From: an uncultured Bacteroidia bacterium
Lineage (GTDB): Bacteria; Bacteroidota; Bacteroidia; NS11-12g; UBA9320
NCBI GenBank assembly: GCA_905478335.1
Contig: CAJQIC010000012.1
Coordinates: 1 to 57,830 of the forward strand
DNA length: 57,830 bases
Reading direction: 5' to 3'
Shown: positions 49,060 through 57,830 of the stretch, piece by piece
How the letters are laid out: each line of letters begins with the position of its first letter
How positions within the stretch are numbered: the stretch's first letter is position 1
Translations under genes and position numbers: made by a program
Notes under the pieces: generated by a model
Databases searched by the model: none
What the model was told of the DNA's origin: nothing
Seen by the model: the letters and a program-made list of their open reading frames with translations, nothing else

Positions 49060-50043
49060 ATGGCAGAAATTCACAAAATATTTGATGGTTTTAAACACCT
49101 GAATGTACTCATTCTAGGTGATGTAATGGTAGACGAATACTACGTCGGAGAAGTTACAAGAATTAGCCCTGAAGCACCGGTTCCGGTTGTTTCTGTTAAG
49201 AAAAGAGAGCGTAGATTAGGAGGAGCGGCTAATGTCGCACTGAATATCAAAGCGCTTGGTGCTAACCCCATTTTATGTGCCGTACGCGGAAACGACCCTG
49301 AGGGTGAATGGTTGTACAATCGATTAAGCGAAGTTGCACTTGAAAATGAAGGCATCATCGTTGACCGAAAAAGACCTACGACCATTAAAACAAGGGTCAT
49401 TGGCAACGAAAAACAACTGTTGCGTGTAGACCAAGAGGACTGTAGGGAAGTTGATAATGAGATTGAAAAACATGCTATTGACTTTGTCAAATCGATAATA
49501 AACCGAGTAGATGTTGTCATTTTACAAGACTATAACAAAGGTTTGTTAACTAAGAAAATCATCAGTGGCGTTATAAAACTGTGCACCAAAGAAGATATAC
49601 CAACGTTAGTAGACCCAAAAATTGATCACTTTCTTGATTATAAAGGGGTCACACTTTTTAAGCCGAACAAAAAAGAAATAATAGACGGGCTCCAATTACA
49701 AAGCGAACTTTCCACCAAAACAGAAATTGAGTCAGCAATTCAATTGCTTGCTAAGAAATTAGATGTTAAGCAAGTGCTTTTAACCTTATCGGAAATGGGC
49801 GTTGCTATTTTGGAAAATGGACAGGTAGTATTTATGGACGCCCACAAACGCAAGATTGTTGACGTAAGCGGTGCAGGCGATTCTGTAATCAGTGTCGCAG
49901 CGCTAGCTGTAGGCTCTAAAATGCCCTGGACATCCGTAGCTGAACTCAGCAACTTAGCGGGTGGTTTAGTCTGTGAAAAAATTGGTGTTGTCGCTATAGA
50001 CAAAACCAAATTATTGGCAGAAGCCGTTCGTATCGGCTTATAG
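49060..50043 (+). CDS. HldE/RfaE1-type PfkB sugar kinase (heptose-7-phosphate kinase)
   Basis: A 327-residue ribokinase-fold kinase closest in motif to the kinase domain of HldE (RfaE), which phosphorylates D-glycero-D-manno-heptose 7-phosphate for LPS core synthesis. Markers are ILGDVMVDEYYVGEVTRISP near the N-terminus, RRLGGAANVALNIKALGA, LQDYNKGLLT and the PfkB signature DVSGAGDSVIS with catalytic Asp274. The nucleotidyltransferase domain of bifunctional HldE is absent, so an HldA-like single enzyme is likely. The GT9 enzyme at 34803 could use the same pathway. The last 6 bp overlap the convergent GH16-like gene. Confidence 0.88.
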   Translation: MAEIHKIFDGFKHLNVLILGDVMVDEYYVGEVTRISPEAPVPVVSVKKRERRLGGAANVALNIKALGANPILCAVRGNDPEGEWLYNRLSEVALENEGIIVDRKRPTTIKTRVIGNEKQLLRVDQEDCREVDNEIEKHAIDFVKSIINRVDVVILQDYNKGLLTKKIISGVIKLCTKEDIPTLVDPKIDHFLDYKGVTLFKPNKKEIIDGLQLQSELSTKTEIESAIQLLAKKLDVKQVLLTLSEMGVAILENGQVVFMDAHKRKIVDVSGAGDSVISVAALAVGSKMPWTSVAELSNLAGGLVCEKIGVVAIDKTKLLAEAVRIGL

Positions 50044-50898
50044 TGGTCTGTATTCGAAGTTTCGAATAATCATTTCTACATCTTTCCCTTTAGTTGGTCC
50101 TTGATTGCTTCCTCCAGTGACCAACCAAAGATTTATTCTTGCATTTGTTTCAGAACCTGGTTTAGGTATTACTATTGGCTCAGAGGTTTTACCTCCCTCT
50201 TGCTTAACGCGTGTGGGTTGTGTATCATCAAAGCTCCATTCGCCAAGTACTTTTCCTTGACCATAAGTGTCTCCGGCGTATGATATCCAAGTAATCTCTT
50301 TCTCAGTCCATGTGAAAGCATGCGTTGTTATACCTTTTAAGCTACCTAAAGGGTAATCAGGGATATACTTACGTTCTTCGTTTAACTGTCCGAAAAAGAT
50401 CGGCTGCACACCGTATTGGAGCGTTCTTTCTTGATCCTTGTTGCTCCATTTACTCACTTCAATATCCACCTCAGAATTCGCGTCTGTTTGAAAGGTATTG
50501 TTGTCCCAAGTAAACAGTCCCAATACGATGTTCTCGGAGATATCTTCAAGATCGGCGTCAACCGTAAAAATGTAGGTACCAAAGCCCATATTTTTATCCG
50601 AAACAACCTCGGTGCTGAACCATTTGTTGTCTCGTTTAACAATCTTCATGTGTAAATAGCCATTATCATCGATGGTTATATCCCGTTCGTTACCAGAAAA
50701 ATAATTGGGTCCTGGTCCCCATTTCCCAGTTTCATGTATTTTAACAGTCCAATCTAATCCTGCAAAACGAATGCTATCGCCAACCCTACCAAACGACTCC
50801 GTATTTACTGATGGGTCAGGTGGTGTGGATTGTTGACAAGCCACCATTGTGGTGGCTATAAATAGAAGTCCGAACAGCTTACCTTTAATATTATTCAC
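50038..50898 (-). CDS. GH16-fold lipoprotein, predicted glycosidase
   Basis: A 286-residue lipoprotein with the lipobox MVAC (Cys21) and a concanavalin-like GH16 fold. The GH16 catalytic signature ExDxE is visible as SEVDIEVSKW, with Glu143 as candidate nucleophile, Asp145 assisting and Glu147 as acid/base. Tryptophans typical of a sugar cleft occur in LGLFTWDNN and ITWISYAGD. GH16 members cut beta-1,3/1,4-glucans, agar, carrageenan or related galactans; the substrate here is unknown. The start is GTG, and the gene overlaps the upstream CBM9-like gene by 8 nt. It is the last gene of the sodium/sugar symporter operon. Confidence 0.72.
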   Translation of the reverse strand: MNNIKGKLFGLLFIATTMVACQQSTPPDPSVNTESFGRVGDSIRFAGLDWTVKIHETGKWGPGPNYFSGNERDITIDDNGYLHMKIVKRDNKWFSTEVVSDKNMGFGTYIFTVDADLEDISENIVLGLFTWDNNTFQTDANSEVDIEVSKWSNKDQERTLQYGVQPIFFGQLNEERKYIPDYPLGSLKGITTHAFTWTEKEITWISYAGDTYGQGKVLGEWSFDDTQPTRVKQEGGKTSEPIVIPKPGSETNARINLWLVTGGSNQGPTKGKDVEMIIRNFEYRPL

Positions 50899-52120
50899 TT
50901 TTATCTGTTGTATATGTTATGTTACCCCAAAACGATGGGTTTTTATGAAATCCCTCTATCCCACTGCTATTCCACTTGAGCTGCTTCGTTCTGTTTTGGC
51001 CATTGCCATCGTTAATAGCTACCTCTAAATGATAATTGATATTAGATTTCAATTCTCCTCGTTTAAAATGTGCGAATGGAATTTGAGCTTCAAACTGATA
51101 CCCCGTTGTGGTTTTTTTGTACGCTATTTCGGTATCTGCAACGCCATCATGCGTCTGCCAATCCCATACCATAGGCTTTTCACCAAGTTTGATACAAATG
51201 TGCTGATCGGTTAACAACAGTTGTTTTCTTCTTGGATTTGCCTCTGGATTTGTGCTAAAGGCAAGCTCTACCCCATCGCCATTCCACACATCGTCGCCTG
51301 ATTTGTTGTTTGACAATGGGCTGGCATCTTGAACTTCTCCACTAACGTAAATGTATTCTGAATTACCTACGATTGAGATTTTGTTCCCGTCTATGTCAAT
51401 TGGGCTGCCCCAATTGGTTTCATCCAATTCGCCATCAATAACGAATCCTGGATCGTGGTCAAACCGTGATGCGTAATGCTTGTTTAAAGTTCCTTCAAAT
51501 GGAACTACGCTAATCTCATCGAAATAGACTTCACCTGCTGCTTCAAATTGAATAAGCATCTGTTTTACGTTGGATGGGTCAGCATCAAACATATCCCAAT
51601 CAAAATCACCGATAGGCAGTGTCACTGTAGCCCAAGTTTCGTCATTCTTATATGAAATGTATTTACCTGCAAATCCAATCCAAGCGGCTTTACCCGCATA
51701 ATCTTCCATTGCAGCAGCTAATGGCAAACCTGCAATTTTCCCACCCGTGCTATATACTTTAAACTGTATGGCGGCCTTATTCATAATCATGCTTAAATCT
51801 TTGGGCGCCCATCCGTCCCAACCGATTCCCATGCCAATCCAATCACAACCACCTTCTTGTTTGTCCCATTTGAGGTGGATGGCGTTAGACCCAGCGAAAA
51901 CGTTTTCTGTGGAATTTTCAACACGAATACATTTCACATCTGCGGTATACCAAACCTCCCCACTTAACTTTTCGTTAAGAACGTTGAGGGCATAAAAGTT
52001 TTCGATATGTGGTGGCTCTGGCTTACTAGATGCCTCATCAAATAATGCTGTAGGTTTAACGGTAACACAGGCTGTGCCTATCACCACTAAAGCTGTAAAT
52101 GCTATGCTTTTAATCCACAT
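50891..52120 (-). CDS. Lipoprotein with CBM9-like sugar-binding domain
   Basis: A 409-residue protein with a lipoprotein-type N-terminus (VVIGTAC, Cys18). The N-terminal half is a beta-sandwich module (about 40-215), containing GCDWIGMGIGWDGWAP and ending VYFDEISVVPFEG, which resembles carbohydrate-binding CIA30/CBM11-like domains. The C-terminal half (about 225-405) matches the CBM9/DOMON-like pattern, including FVIDGELDETNWGSPIDIDG, DDVWNGDGVELAFS and YQFEAQIPFAHF. It probably binds a polysaccharide at the cell surface. It lies 2 nt after the upstream lipoprotein gene and overlaps the GH16-like gene by 8 nt. Confidence 0.74.
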   Translation of the reverse strand: MWIKSIAFTALVVIGTACVTVKPTALFDEASSKPEPPHIENFYALNVLNEKLSGEVWYTADVKCIRVENSTENVFAGSNAIHLKWDKQEGGCDWIGMGIGWDGWAPKDLSMIMNKAAIQFKVYSTGGKIAGLPLAAAMEDYAGKAAWIGFAGKYISYKNDETWATVTLPIGDFDWDMFDADPSNVKQMLIQFEAAGEVYFDEISVVPFEGTLNKHYASRFDHDPGFVIDGELDETNWGSPIDIDGNKISIVGNSEYIYVSGEVQDASPLSNNKSGDDVWNGDGVELAFSTNPEANPRRKQLLLTDQHICIKLGEKPMVWDWQTHDGVADTEIAYKKTTTGYQFEAQIPFAHFKRGELKSNINYHLEVAINDGNGQNRTKQLKWNSSGIEGFHKNPSFWGNITYTTDKSE

Positions 52121-52122
52121 AA

Positions 52123-53154
52123 CTACAGTTTTAAAGGTCCGTCGTTTGTGAATACTACGAAATCCATAAGGACTTGTGAGTAGCCCGTTGCTGGATTAGC
52201 CAAAAACAGGCACGATAAGGTGTGTAGCTTATCTGGATTGTGCAGTGCGTTTCCTCTCGGCGTAGTTGGCTGACCATTCTCTAAGGCAATTAAGTCTGCA
52301 TATTTTATAGACACAATTTGCCATCCTGGATCAAGGTCTTTAAGCTCCAAAGCGTACATGTCTTCATTTGCGTCATTGAAGTTACCATCGCCGTTTTCGT
52401 CTTCTTTAAACTGGAATAATACGATACCATTGGTTAGTGTATCAGGTCTGTAAAGAACTGCATTAAAGTATGACTCATTTGGATTACTTGACCTGTCAAA
52501 ACCATTAGGTCCAACTGCTGTAGCTGGAAAATCAACCAATCCTATAAGGTAATCCCAGTTAACTGCACCAGCCATGTCGAAATAATTATTTCCCTCCGGA
52601 ACAGGTTTGTCGTTTGCAATAGTGAAGGTCATATCTGCACCGCTTTGTGCAAATACAGTCCATCCAGGATTTATTCCTGATTCAAAATCGGCAACAACGG
52701 TTCCGGTAGGAACGCGTAATCCTGTAACATTGACGTTTGCGTTCTGCTTTGAGCTATCAGCTTCCGTCCAAAGTTCAACGGTACAAGCCCCCGTACCAAA
52801 AGACGGAAAAACAGTTGTGGATCCATCCCAAGTGCCATTCTCTTCATTGATCAGGTTAGATCTTCCTTCAATTATTTTCGTCGCATCCGAAGTGGAGCTT
52901 TTAATTGTAATGGTCCAAGATGTAATCGTTGAAAAACGGGCTGTAAAATAAACTGTTTCGTTGGCTGAAAAGTCTACATCGGCTTGGCTCGTTTTGAAGT
53001 CTTCAAGCACGGTGAACTCTCCGTATATGTCAGACAAATTTGGTCCTTCAGTTTCTGTAACTCTGTCACAACCTGCTGCAAATACTATAGTGCCAAATAC
53101 GACAAGAGCTGCTAATCGATTTAACATAGATGTTTTATTTAATGTCATTTTCAT
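52123..53154 (-). CDS. Surface-type lipoprotein of unknown function
   Basis: A 343-residue protein with a signal peptide and lipobox FAAGC (Cys29). The mature region is made of beta-sandwich modules: an N-terminal Ig-like part (about 45-145) and a C-terminal jelly-roll part (about 155-340) with VVADFESGINPGWTVFAQS and an EF-hand-like acidic loop DENGDGNFNDANED that may bind calcium. This layout recalls SusE/SusF-type glycan-binding lipoproteins, but no sequence family is recognised. It starts 11 nt after the upstream barrel gene and ends 2 nt before the CBM9-like gene, inside the symporter operon. Confidence 0.7.
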   Translation of the reverse strand: MKMTLNKTSMLNRLAALVVFGTIVFAAGCDRVTETEGPNLSDIYGEFTVLEDFKTSQADVDFSANETVYFTARFSTITSWTITIKSSTSDATKIIEGRSNLINEENGTWDGSTTVFPSFGTGACTVELWTEADSSKQNANVNVTGLRVPTGTVVADFESGINPGWTVFAQSGADMTFTIANDKPVPEGNNYFDMAGAVNWDYLIGLVDFPATAVGPNGFDRSSNPNESYFNAVLYRPDTLTNGIVLFQFKEDENGDGNFNDANEDMYALELKDLDPGWQIVSIKYADLIALENGQPTTPRGNALHNPDKLHTLSCLFLANPATGYSQVLMDFVVFTNDGPLKL

Positions 53155-53165
53155 TTCCTTTCAAT

Positions 53166-54878
53166 TTAAAAGTACATACTATAAACGATGCCAAACTGGC
53201 TTAGGTCAAACGCAGGAGTTTCTGCATTTGCGGCATCTTCGTAATTTAATTTTTGCCAAACCACGTTTAGGTGGTTCTTTTCGTCAAACGTATAGCGAAG
53301 CGCAACAGACATGATTGACTGATTCATTTCGGTATTAAAGCGCTCATAGTCTACAATTTCGCTATAGTCGTTTCTTGTATTAAGGAACTCCAATCCTGTA
53401 GCGTTAATCATTCTGTAACTACCGATGATTGCGAAATTCTTTGACAAACCAACCTTCACACCCAAATCAACCATAGTAGAAGTAAAATCTACATCTGCTG
53501 TATCAAGGTCTATATCACGTTGTGTGTTTTGATTTTTAACACCAATACTTACCTCCAACGGATTTTTAAAGCTTGGCATCAATGTATCAAGTCTGATTAA
53601 CGCCGAAAGATCAATCACATTAAATGTGCGCAGTTCTTCAGTTCCCTGACCAACTACCTCAGACAACATGCGGTATGTCGCATCAACGTTTATCAATTCG
53701 TTATTTGTACTATGCACAGCATTTACAGACAATCCTTTTCTGTTAGGCGTTGCTTTGCCGTATGGCTGAACATTGTCGTATTGTGGTGCAAATCTTTGCA
53801 GCTCCATTGAAAGTGTTGGTTGATATAAGGAAGCATCTTGCATCATATCTAACTGTGTTACAGGACGAACAACCTGGTCGTTACCATAACGATTAAACAA
53901 CTGCGTTTGCGATTCAAAATCGATTCGTCTGCTTTGAGCGCCAACACTTCTAAATTGAGGTCCCACATTAATATAATTCACAGACAGGCTAGGAAGTTTG
54001 TCTCCTCGCGTAATTTTCAAGTCAAGATCGTAAAAATAATCGCGGAGGCCAGTAGCATTAGGATCGTTCAGCGTATACATTTCTGAAATACCACTTTCTG
54101 AAGTAAAGCTAAGATCGTATGCATTCACCTTTTGATGAATTTCTGTCGTTCCGGTAATTACTGGATTATGAAAGGCCATATCTGAACGCGAAGTTCCAGC
54201 GATGTCCATCATATCAACATAATTTAAGCCAACTGCCAGTTTATCGCTTTGCAGTAGTGTTGCGTTTCCACCAAAGAATATACGTTCACTTGTTTGTCCG
54301 AAATCAGTTGGTCTGTTGCGAAACATAAACGAGTTCACTTGTAATTCTTTTACGGCTTTAGAAAATTCTAAAGTAAAGTCAACTGCGGCGCCCTGCTGTC
54401 TCCAGGTATTGTCGTCGGTATAAAATAAGTCATAGTGTACCATATCACGATAGATATCAAGTAACTCAGACTGGTGACTGCTCAACTCTTCTTGATTGTT
54501 ATAAAAGGTGTATGGACTCAGTTTGTAGTTGATGTCCCCTAATTGGTAACGGACAGCATCGTTAACTAAACCTTTCAAATACATCTGACGCATGTCGAAT
54601 GTAACACCTGCTCCCCAAAATCCGCCGAAGTCGTTTCTTACTCGAACCATGGCATGAACAAACGTGTTTGCATTTGGCCGTGCGTTTAGGGCAACATCAA
54701 CCAAAGTATTCCCAGAGTTTAAGTTGGTTGGTGTAATGGTATCTCCTTCAGTGCCCAGTGTGTTCTGCTGGAATACGCTACGTGCAGCGCCGGAAGCCCA
54801 CACTTTCTTTCCTTGTGCTAGTGTAATGGTTGAGCAAAGCGTCAATGCGATTACGACTATATATTTCTTCTGAATCAT
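53166..54878 (-). CDS. Outer-membrane beta-barrel protein A of the sugar operon
   Basis: A 570-residue protein with a signal peptide (MIQKKYIVVIALTLCSTITLAQ) and a long beta-rich body ending LSQFGIVYSMYF, a typical terminal barrel strand. It has no TonB box, no plug domain and no carboxypeptidase-like N-terminal domain, and is far shorter than SusC (about 1000 residues), so it is not a SusC transporter. I do not recognise its family. Its ATG directly follows the stop of barrel B (TAAATG), so the two are cotranslated. A passive or gated glycan channel is inference from position. Confidence 0.7.
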   Translation of the reverse strand: MIQKKYIVVIALTLCSTITLAQGKKVWASGAARSVFQQNTLGTEGDTITPTNLNSGNTLVDVALNARPNANTFVHAMVRVRNDFGGFWGAGVTFDMRQMYLKGLVNDAVRYQLGDINYKLSPYTFYNNQEELSSHQSELLDIYRDMVHYDLFYTDDNTWRQQGAAVDFTLEFSKAVKELQVNSFMFRNRPTDFGQTSERIFFGGNATLLQSDKLAVGLNYVDMMDIAGTSRSDMAFHNPVITGTTEIHQKVNAYDLSFTSESGISEMYTLNDPNATGLRDYFYDLDLKITRGDKLPSLSVNYINVGPQFRSVGAQSRRIDFESQTQLFNRYGNDQVVRPVTQLDMMQDASLYQPTLSMELQRFAPQYDNVQPYGKATPNRKGLSVNAVHSTNNELINVDATYRMLSEVVGQGTEELRTFNVIDLSALIRLDTLMPSFKNPLEVSIGVKNQNTQRDIDLDTADVDFTSTMVDLGVKVGLSKNFAIIGSYRMINATGLEFLNTRNDYSEIVDYERFNTEMNQSIMSVALRYTFDEKNHLNVVWQKLNYEDAANAETPAFDLSQFGIVYSMYF

Positions 54879-56873
54879 TTAAAATGTTAATTTAAGTTCT
54901 ACAACTGTCTCAGTACCATTGAACGCATCACGCTCAAAATTGCGGTCTTCAAAATGAAACCATCTGTGACGTAAAAATAAAGCGGTGTTTTTAGATAAAT
55001 CATAGTCTACCCCAAGGCCTACTCCCCAGCCTCTTTGATCTCTTGGTGCGTTCGTAATCGCATCCAAATCAGTTTGATAATTGGCTACGATACTTTCATA
55101 ACCTAAGTATGTTGCGATAACACATCGATCATTGTATTCATAGTACATTTCTAACTCATTGCTATAATGTCTTAGATAGGCATCCTCTGAGAAAACGGTT
55201 ATTGGTGAAATAAAATCTTGAACCGAAGAATATCGATTTAACAAAAAGGCATGAAATCTTTTCAGACCTATTTTACCAGAGTATTTTGCCTGAATTTCCA
55301 TTACGTTAAACTTCTTCGCAACAAAAGTGTCTGACAATTCGACGAGTTCATATACATCCCTAAAAATCACGTTGTATCTGCCATAGGCGCCAACATTTGT
55401 TGGGAAGTTCCATCGCCAGAAACGAGACCTTGTTAACTGGTTAACTGGATGTCCGTAACTAATTTGATTACTCAGTCCTTTCAATTCTGAAGAAATGCCA
55501 TTGGCAATCGAAAGCTTGAGTTTTTTAATTGGGAACTCAGCGTTGATGTTAAGTCCTTGTCGGTTGTTTGTAAACTGACCAATCGCAGTGAGTGCGCTTG
55601 CAAAAGGCGCCAATACTTGACTGGAGCCAACCGTACCTGCAGCAAGCGTATTATTACTCGCCTCTTGAATTGCTGAGTTAAAGAATATGGCGTTGTTGTT
55701 AATCACGTTAGGGCTCACTCTAAAGAAGTGTAACTCAAACGGCACCTTGCTGATTTTTTCAGTGAAGTTTAGTTTTACGTTAATCGCTTCTCCGAAAGGA
55801 TTGCTGTGTACCGGACTGTAATACTGTCCTGCACCAATTTCCGATTTCAGGATAATTCCTTTCGAAATGTTTGCTTGAAACTCTATTGTAGAGATATCAA
55901 AACCAATACTGTTCGTGCCAAGGCTATCGCTGAAGGTTTGATTATGGAACGTGTTGAATGCTACAAATCCAAAAGGTGTTTCCTTTTTTAATTTACCTCC
56001 GTACGATAAATTTGGAATGGTAAGAAAGCCTCCGTTTAATTCGGTTTTCCCATACAAGGCTTTTAAACTCAAATTGCCTGGTAGATTTGAGGCCTCTACA
56101 ATAGTTCCTGTAAATGCCCGCTCTCCCCAACGCGTATCTTGGTTAATGTTTCCTTGGTTATAGAAACTGCTATACCTGTCTGAAACATTGGTATTAACGG
56201 GATCCCATGGGTTTCTCTCGAACAACATAAATCGGTTGTAGCCTTTAAAACCTGCCAATGTTAAGTCACTTATAGACACCCAGTGTATACCACCTGTTTT
56301 AACCCCAAACGTACCTATGTCTGTATCAAAGTTTCCGTACAGATTAATACCAAGCAATAATCCTAGGTTTGTTGCAAATCGTGTACCTGTAAGCGGACTA
56401 TATATCGTTGGCAAATTGGTTTGACTAACTTGTCCTTGTCCATAAGTTTGGTTGATTTTCCCATCTAAAAACTGAAAAGCATACAAGTCGAAACCCCAAG
56501 CCGTTTTAGCCGAAGGTCTTCCAGAAAAATTCAACGTAAGATTTGGCAATTGGCTGTCATCCCCTACAAAGACACTTTTTTGTATCGCTGTATCGTTGTT
56601 TGCTTCGTTTAAAATTAACGCATCTTTATGCCGTGTATACGTGCTAAAGAACCGATAATTTCCTGCAACTTTGAACGTATACAGCGCGTCTGCCGGCTTC
56701 TTTGGATAAACCCCGACCTTAGGTTTTATCGTAGAATCGAAACGGGTGTTCCAGTTGGCTTGCCAACGTTTAAACGAATCTAACTCCTGATTATCAGGAG
56801 GTGCCTGACCAGAACTAGATTGCCATCCAATCAGACAGCAGATGATTGTAATTATTCTTTTTGAATTCATCAT
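54879..56873 (-). CDS. Outer-membrane beta-barrel protein B of the sugar operon
   Basis: A 664-residue protein with a signal peptide (MMNSKRIITIICCLIGWQSS), a short helical N-terminal segment (LDSFKRWQANWNTRFDS) and a beta-rich body ending NGTETVVELKLTF, consistent with an outer-membrane barrel. Paired strands such as WGVGLGVDYDLSKNTALFLR near the C-terminus support this. No known family is recognised, and no TonB box or plug is seen. Its ATG overlaps the stop of the sodium/sugar symporter by 4 nt (ATGA). It and barrel A may form one outer-membrane assembly, which is inference. Confidence 0.7.
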   Translation of the reverse strand: MMNSKRIITIICCLIGWQSSSGQAPPDNQELDSFKRWQANWNTRFDSTIKPKVGVYPKKPADALYTFKVAGNYRFFSTYTRHKDALILNEANNDTAIQKSVFVGDDSQLPNLTLNFSGRPSAKTAWGFDLYAFQFLDGKINQTYGQGQVSQTNLPTIYSPLTGTRFATNLGLLLGINLYGNFDTDIGTFGVKTGGIHWVSISDLTLAGFKGYNRFMLFERNPWDPVNTNVSDRYSSFYNQGNINQDTRWGERAFTGTIVEASNLPGNLSLKALYGKTELNGGFLTIPNLSYGGKLKKETPFGFVAFNTFHNQTFSDSLGTNSIGFDISTIEFQANISKGIILKSEIGAGQYYSPVHSNPFGEAINVKLNFTEKISKVPFELHFFRVSPNVINNNAIFFNSAIQEASNNTLAAGTVGSSQVLAPFASALTAIGQFTNNRQGLNINAEFPIKKLKLSIANGISSELKGLSNQISYGHPVNQLTRSRFWRWNFPTNVGAYGRYNVIFRDVYELVELSDTFVAKKFNVMEIQAKYSGKIGLKRFHAFLLNRYSSVQDFISPITVFSEDAYLRHYSNELEMYYEYNDRCVIATYLGYESIVANYQTDLDAITNAPRDQRGWGVGLGVDYDLSKNTALFLRHRWFHFEDRNFERDAFNGTETVVELKLTF

Positions 56874-57830
56874 TTAAATAAATACCATAAAATGAAAACT
56901 GAGATTATTAATAAAAGTGACAGTAAAATATTGACACTTGATTTTTGAAATGTTAAAGCACCTTTAGACCATGTAATGTCTTCAAGTTGTGAATCAGACA
57001 AGGCATCTTTTTCTTTCGAAAATGCATAAAGCAAAGCCACGCAAACCAGAAACAGGAATAAGGCAAAGTGCAAAAAGTTTATTTGCGTAAAGGCATGTAA
57101 TGGCCCAGACAAATCGTCTTGAACCAGCTCTAAACCTAGTCTTACCAAACCTATAGCAGCGCCGCTCAACAAAGATATTTTAGCAGCCTGAGGTGTTATC
57201 TTTTTGCTCAGAATGCCTACTAAGAAAACAGCTGCAATTGGAGGCGAGATGTACGCCTGAATACTTTGGAGTACTTTGAATAAGCCACCCTTGATATCCT
57301 CCATGAAAGGAATCCATGCCATGCCCAATACAATCAGTACAACCGTGGCTATCTGACCGACGTAAACAAGTTGCTTTTTAGTTGCTTCAGGCTTGTACTG
57401 GCGATAGATGTCCATGGTAAACAACGTGGAACAAGAGTTAAAGACAGAAGACAATGAGCTCATTAGTGCGGCCAATAAGCCTGCAATAACAAGGCCTTTA
57501 AAACCTGCTGGCAAGACCGCTAAACTGAGCAGAGGTAATGCCGCATCGTAGTTGGTTGACCCATCCGCTTTTAATGGAAATGTAACTAAAGCATCGTCTC
57601 CAACAGAAAGTGCCAAGGCAATCAGACCTGGAACGACAAATAAAAACAAGGGTAATAGTTTTAAGAAACCACCGAATATGGTCCCTTTTCTAGCGTGATC
57701 AATATTTTTGGCTGCCAATACGCGTTGAACGATAAATTGGTCTGTACACCAGTACCAAACCCCTAAAATGGGTGCCCCAAACAGTATGCCTGTCCAAGGG
57801 TAATCTGGATGCTGCATGTTCTTCCAAAGA
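56870..57830 (-). CDS. Sodium/sugar symporter (SSS/SLC5 family), partial
   Basis: The C-terminal part (about 319 residues) of a sodium:solute symporter; the N-terminal helices lie beyond the window edge. The frame continues upstream of the Met at 57817 to the end of the sequence. The segment WYWCTDQFIVQRVLAAKNID followed by AFLK-like FGGFLKLLPL closely matches the sodium/glucose (SGLT) branch rather than proline or pantothenate carriers. It moves a sugar across the inner membrane with Na+. It is the first visible gene of the operon that ends with the GH16-like gene. Whether genes lie upstream cannot be seen. Confidence 0.88.
   Translation of the reverse strand, partial: LWKNMQHPDYPWTGILFGAPILGVWYWCTDQFIVQRVLAAKNIDHARKGTIFGGFLKLLPLFLFVVPGLIALALSVGDDALVTFPLKADGSTNYDAALPLLSLAVLPAGFKGLVIAGLLAALMSSLSSVFNSCSTLFTMDIYRQYKPEATKKQLVYVGQIATVVLIVLGMAWIPFMEDIKGGLFKVLQSIQAYISPPIAAVFLVGILSKKITPQAAKISLLSGAAIGLVRLGLELVQDDLSGPLHAFTQINFLHFALFLFLVCVALLYAFSKEKDALSDSQLEDITWSKGALTFQKSSVNILLSLLLIISVFILWYLFK

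Follow-up and report, generated by a model that had tools for sequence, protein, structure and literature searches.

The two predicted outer-membrane β-barrels BarB and BarA, encoded side by side in the genome of an uncultured Bacteroidia bacterium (GTDB lineage NS11-12g; UBA9320), are on balance best read as part of a second or additional outer-membrane module for β-glucan use, which combines barrel channels with lipoproteins and glycoside hydrolases and occurs with or without SusC/SusD. A more far-reaching reading is that BarB-BarA and two binding lipoproteins make up a second uptake system of Bacteroidota that is independent of TonB and SusCD, is dedicated to β-1,3-glucan, can trade places with a SusCD-PKD module where the gene sets are otherwise equivalent, and has escaped notice because searches for glycan loci rely on susCD. 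In our estimation this has an even chance of being correct.

The stretch of DNA that was analysed (the window; 57,830 nucleotides) is contig C12 of a 2.78-Mb genome in 74 contigs. It ends in six open reading frames, all on the minus strand and all located exactly where the original prediction had placed them, the first of which continues on another contig, C14:

Contig C14, L003:17643-18452: N-terminal part of the symporter (contig overlap; full-length orthologs have 545 amino acids)
56870-57829, minus strand: C-terminal part of an SGLT-type Na+/solute symporter (SSF 1.4e-38, Pfam); the reading frame is open at the window end
54879-56873, minus strand: BarB, predicted outer-membrane β-barrel, 664 amino acids (fold prediction, large barrels by fold search, C-terminal Phe)
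53166-54878, minus strand: BarA, predicted outer-membrane β-barrel, 570 amino acids, no N-terminal plug (fold prediction, large barrels by fold search, C-terminal Phe)
52123-53154, minus strand: lipoprotein with a CBM11-like domain seen in its family, candidate surface glycan-binding protein (family profile, conserved Cys)
50891-52120, minus strand: lipoprotein with an N-terminal CBM30/SGBP-like and a C-terminal CBM9-like domain (Pfam matches)
50038-50898, minus strand: divergent GH16-like lipoprotein with an ExDxE (lichenase-type) catalytic motif (sub-threshold GH16 match and motif)

In operon order the genes are joined by a 4-nt ATGA overlap, a TAAATG junction, spacings of 11 nt and 2 nt, and an 8-nt overlap with a GTG start, likewise as described before, and the gene order is far above chance expectation. 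On the plus strand a kinase-like gene (49060-50043) converges with the last gene of the operon and overlaps it by 6 bases (window 50038-50043).

Contig C14 and the window share about 244 bp at their ends, within the symporter gene, and differ there by one A in a homopolymer; G033, a congener, has a single intact gene for a symporter of 545 amino acids at this junction. The assignment of the symporter to the SGLT type is upheld by its SSF domain and by similarity, its nearest relatives being human SGLT1/2 and vSGLT (a 95%-identical ortholog gave E 7e-109 against human SGLT1, 7sl8, and 4e-76 against vSGLT), as is expected of an SGLT-type Na+/sugar symporter. Further upstream on C14 lie the gene for a 474-amino-acid protein, predicted to be a GH158 endo-β-1,3-glucanase (PDB 9oro 4e-93, 6pal 6e-73; the catalytic NE and E segments align to 9oro), and then that for a Nudix protein with NrtR/AraR winged-helix domains. 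A divergent arm encodes an MFS sugar porter, a GH16 laminarinase lipoprotein (laminarinase match 9e-61), a GH30 lipoprotein related to an endo-1,6-β-glucanase, and a 1138-amino-acid GH149 β-1,3-oligoglucan phosphorylase, which matches the NCBIfam equivalog NF058639 over residues 5-1130 with 1627.7 bits (cut-off 1150) and PDB 6hq6 with 1250 bits. Assignments of the 1138-amino-acid protein to GH94 and of the 474-amino-acid protein to GH2 were considered and proved wrong. The GH149 gene is adjoined by a gene for a 466-amino-acid protein in which a module is duplicated and which carries a type IX secretion tail (L003:6157-7557); weak relatives of this protein occur near many barrel operons.

Together, GH158, GH149, the GH16 laminarinase and GH30 point to β-1,3-glucan as the substrate class, and judged by these families the substrate is probably a β-1,3-glucan with β-1,6 branches, that is, laminarin-like. 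The original prediction of a sugar-uptake locus stands and gains a substrate; in the strict sense the locus is not a polysaccharide utilization locus (PUL), which is defined by an adjacent susC/susD-like pair in the cluster. Neither SusC nor SusD is encoded in the visible part of the operon within the window, and reading upstream into C14 bears out their predicted absence from the locus, as none was found on L003, which was read past the GH149 gene. With its GH158, GH16, GH30 and GH149 genes and its MFS and SSF transporters, the locus belongs among the CAZyme clusters lacking susCD.

By sequence, BarA and BarB are new, unclassified families of outer-membrane barrels. Modeled by AlphaFold with 66 aligned relatives, BarA is confidently predicted to be a plug-less 22-strand barrel that extends from residue 26 to the C-terminus and ends in Phe (mean pLDDT 89.0, pTM 0.83). 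Less confidently, BarB is predicted to be a large barrel of about 22 strands, with its first strand at residue 66 and with loops of low confidence (mean pLDDT 74.5, pTM 0.72). A C-terminal Phe is present in 60 of 66 BarA and in all 61 BarB sequences. Neither barrel reached the curated cut-off of any Pfam, NCBIfam or PHROG family or gave a convincing E-value in these searches; the only Pfam signal was a sub-threshold match to OMP_b-brl, and sequence search returned no meaningful solved relative. Fold searches with both models gave Z scores of 13-17 to many unrelated large barrels, tied throughout; these generic matches include ushers, OccK/OprD, AlgE and TonB receptors, and no single family stands clear. 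That the two barrels represent unclassified families, as originally proposed, is supported. A relation to SusC or other TonB-dependent receptors was rejected, since there is no family match, no plug (PF07715 is not matched by any of the 66 BarA and 61 BarB sequences), and a length of 570 and 664 amino acids as compared to the roughly 1000 expected. FadL-type fatty-acid transporters were rejected as well: no member has a FadL/OmpP1 Pfam match, and the FadL barrel has 14 strands as opposed to about 22. Nor are BarA and BarB duplicates of one another (hhalign probability 5%). No match to BarA was found on plasmids. When residues were assigned to the lumen or the lipid side from strand hydrophobicity, the residues inferred to face the lumen were more conserved than those facing the lipid (weakly so for BarA, p 0.025; clearly for BarB, p 2e-6), and the long loops of the barrels are strongly conserved. 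The conservation of the modeled lumen fits a selective channel without proving one.

As to the lipoproteins, Cys29 of the CBM11-like protein is invariant in its family, 10 of 33 members of which match CBM_11 (best 4.4e-6), the window protein itself having no Pfam match. Its neighbor matches CBM9_1 (2.2e-13), SGBP_B_XBD (5.5e-4) and CBM30 (1.1e-3), and the profile of its family matches solved CBM-type chains. The GH16-like window protein gives sub-threshold matches to Pfam GH16 (0.036) and a weak profile match, below the cut-off, to 1,3-1,4-β-glucanases; the ExDxE motif previously noted in it is real (EVDIE), with E143, D145 and E147 invariant, and is kept in 44 of 44 relatives examined.

A scan of GTDB genomes yielded 137 loci with a relative of BarA, 80 of which, all from Bacteroidota, were retained for analysis. 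BarB immediately precedes BarA in all 79 testable loci, the CBM11-like lipoprotein directly follows BarA in 78 of 78, the CBM30-like protein is present in 67 of 68, and GH158 is encoded at most four genes upstream in 62 of 63. This conserved order bears out the expected co-conservation of the operon, with the symporter being present in only a minority of the 80 loci. GH3 belongs to the operon of many relatives and is absent from that of the window genome, and barrels without GH149 are common in the host order. In this order 33 of 108 genomes have BarA, counting a probably spurious match in G039, and 31 have BarB, every one of them within the BarA set. A sample of the phylum contained BarA in 7 of 392 genomes, one match being very weak; four of the seven are GC-rich and lie outside the class, and in these BarB, BarA and the lipoprotein remain adjacent, with GH158 nearby in two and a LacI-like gene upstream in two. 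The barrel module is thus rare in the phylum overall and yet widely scattered. In one draft genome (locus L035, G035:C9) BarB and the SSF gene are split over several frames while BarA is intact; sequencing errors are the likely cause, decay a less likely one.

SusC and SusD are missing from the locus but present elsewhere in the genome: contig C56 encodes a trio of laminarin-type SusC (1032 amino acids), SusD (492 amino acids) and a PKD-like lipoprotein. This contig (L155, G000:C56:1-7705) is 7.7 kb long; a recombinase-like gene lies on one side of the trio and, at the contig end, a 127-bp repeat on the other, and this repeat recurs on contigs C1, C8, C19 and C33. The sister genus (G036) has a SusC/SusD/PKD trio of its own, 67, 70 and 62% identical to that of C56, next to GH149 in the corresponding cluster, and G105 and G107 have SusC-SusD immediately upstream of the barrel operon. 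Of the 80 loci, only one has SusC/SusD at a distance of up to 10 kb from the barrels. Conversely, 15 genomes of the same family contain the SusD ortholog (at least 66% identity) and no barrels, and in such barrel-free relatives SusC-SusD-PKD is found beside GH16 and GH149 (G019, G020) or beside NrtR-SSF-GH3 (G022, G029). Three congeners (G033, G034, G035) have barrels and GH149 and neither a PF07980 SusD nor a SusD ortholog, although these are draft genomes, in which single absences may be gaps, and only G034 is listed as 100% complete. Across the order SusD is present in 21 of 32 barrel genomes and in 50 of 76 others, about 66% each, as counted with Pfam PF07980 and one ortholog, a search that divergent SusD-like genes would escape. 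One such gene, the SusD-like partner of a second SusC, is found with a short lipoprotein gene on contig C16 of the window genome (L156, G000:C16:26000-42000), adjoining topoisomerase-subunit-like genes. Around one set of enzymes, SusCD and barrel modules thus replace each other or occur together, and this is our main argument that the barrels do an outer-membrane job in β-glucan use. The simpler idea that the barrels just replace SusCD is not supported as it stands, given the trio on C56 and the SusCD within the cluster in G036, G105 and G107.

We propose the following sequence of events. At the cell surface the GH16-like enzyme and the CBM11-like and CBM30/CBM9 lipoproteins would hold and cut the glucan, and BarB and BarA would serve as channels, selective for their substrate and independent of TonB, through which the oligosaccharides cross the outer membrane. 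GH158, GH30 and the second GH16, with GH3 in most relatives, would trim the oligosaccharides; the SGLT symporter would then take in glucose and the MFS porter sugars or short oligomers, with GH149 phosphorolyzing β-1,3-oligoglucan in the cytoplasm and an NrtR/AraR-type regulator at the head of the operon. Transport through the barrels, its independence of TonB, the cue for induction and the location of each enzyme are what we infer here from gene content and predicted folds. The earlier notion of sodium instead of TonB as the driving force is too simple, as the symporter is confined to a minority of the loci and acts at the inner membrane. The barrel module would be alternative or additional to the laminarin SusCD-PKD module, together with it in some genomes and alone in others.

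But why would a genome that holds a laminarin-type SusCD-PKD trio keep the barrels as well? The presence of SusCD in the window genome, G036, G105 and G107 counts against our preferred reading, and the barrels may serve another step. Also counting against it are the frequency of barrels without GH149 in the order, the generic nature of the fold matches, the low confidence of the BarB loops, and the GH16-like enzyme and CBM11/CBM30-like domains, which would suit mixed-linkage glucan as well. SusCD encoded elsewhere might do the importing, with the barrels acting as a scaffold or assembly factor for enzymes and lipoproteins of the surface, or as an accessory general porin. The retention of the C56 trio, the SusCD within the same cluster in the three other genomes, the constant position of the barrels beside binding lipoproteins and their long conserved loops, which could bind partners, would all agree with this. 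We nevertheless regard a role other than that of import channel as unlikely, because three congeners bearing the operon, one of them 100% complete, have no PF07980 SusD or SusD ortholog, because SusD occurs in the order as often with barrels as without them, and because known SusCD clusters of the family do without barrels.

Two further alternatives concern what is handled and in which direction. Since AlgE is among the fold matches and several of the GH families also act in glucan remodeling, the operon could in principle reshape or export a β-glucan of the cell's own envelope or matrix, with the barrels as AlgE-type exporters; envelope-glycan remodeling had also been the alternative offered by the original prediction. 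This is highly improbable, as no glucan synthase was recognized among the Pfam-scanned genes of the cluster, the locus encodes two importers for sugars along with a phosphorylase of the cytoplasmic type and a regulator of the sugar type, and its enzyme set is that of proven catabolic β-1,3-glucan PULs. A mixed-linkage β-1,3/1,4-glucan or another β-glucan in place of laminarin is quite unlikely. Mixed-linkage glucans and cellulose are ligands of the CBM11 and CBM30 families, and the CBM11/CBM30-like domains, together with the ExDxE motif and weak lichenase matches of the GH16-like protein, leave room for such a substrate when we infer the exact glucan. GH149, GH158 and the other GH16, however, are β-1,3-glucan families, and GH30 suggests β-1,6 branches.

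Our reading of BarB and BarA as β-glucan channels invites comparison with known systems. Substrate-selective diffusion porins are plug-less barrels of 16 to 18 strands for sugars and small substrates. Chitoporin, maltoporin and OccK/OprD resemble BarB and BarA in lacking a plug, and such porins are among the fold matches; the barrels described here differ in having about 22 predicted strands, in forming an obligate pair and in showing no sequence relation. With the Bacteroides 1,3GUL, which carries a GH16-GH158-GH3 set (PMC7157763), the locus shares GH16, GH158, GH3 (in many relatives), non-enzymatic surface glycan-binding lipoproteins and a regulator. In place of the SusC, SusD and hybrid two-component regulator of 1,3GUL, however, it has the barrel pair, the CBM11-like and CBM30/CBM9 lipoproteins and an NrtR-type regulator. 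In the SusCD utilisome (PMC7618045) a large barrel works in concert with glycanases and binding lipoproteins at the surface, a combination also encoded here, albeit with no plug, no TonB-dependent receptor match, no SusD lid and two different barrels. For marine Bacteroidetes, both laminarin PULs and CAZyme clusters lacking susCD are on record among the GH149 clusters, which, like the present one, combine GH149 with GH30, GH16 and a sugar transporter, and the parts of these reports available to us name no outer-membrane replacement for susCD, the place taken here by a conserved barrel pair (PMC5827456; PMC10108472). A laminarin cluster devoid of SusCD is therefore already known, and the new part is the barrel pair with its binding lipoproteins, for which our literature search found no report.

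Laminarin ranks among the largest marine stores of fixed carbon, taking up more than 10% of the carbon dioxide fixed annually according to one account (PMC11345257). Organisms that consume it are often recognized by their susCD genes, and surveys may thus miss users that rely on barrel-pair loci without SusCD. If our reading is true, there would be a TonB-independent route for glycans across the outer membrane of Bacteroidota. Phaeocystidibacter luteus, a cultured and named strain, has the full set (locus L064), so that the idea is directly testable.
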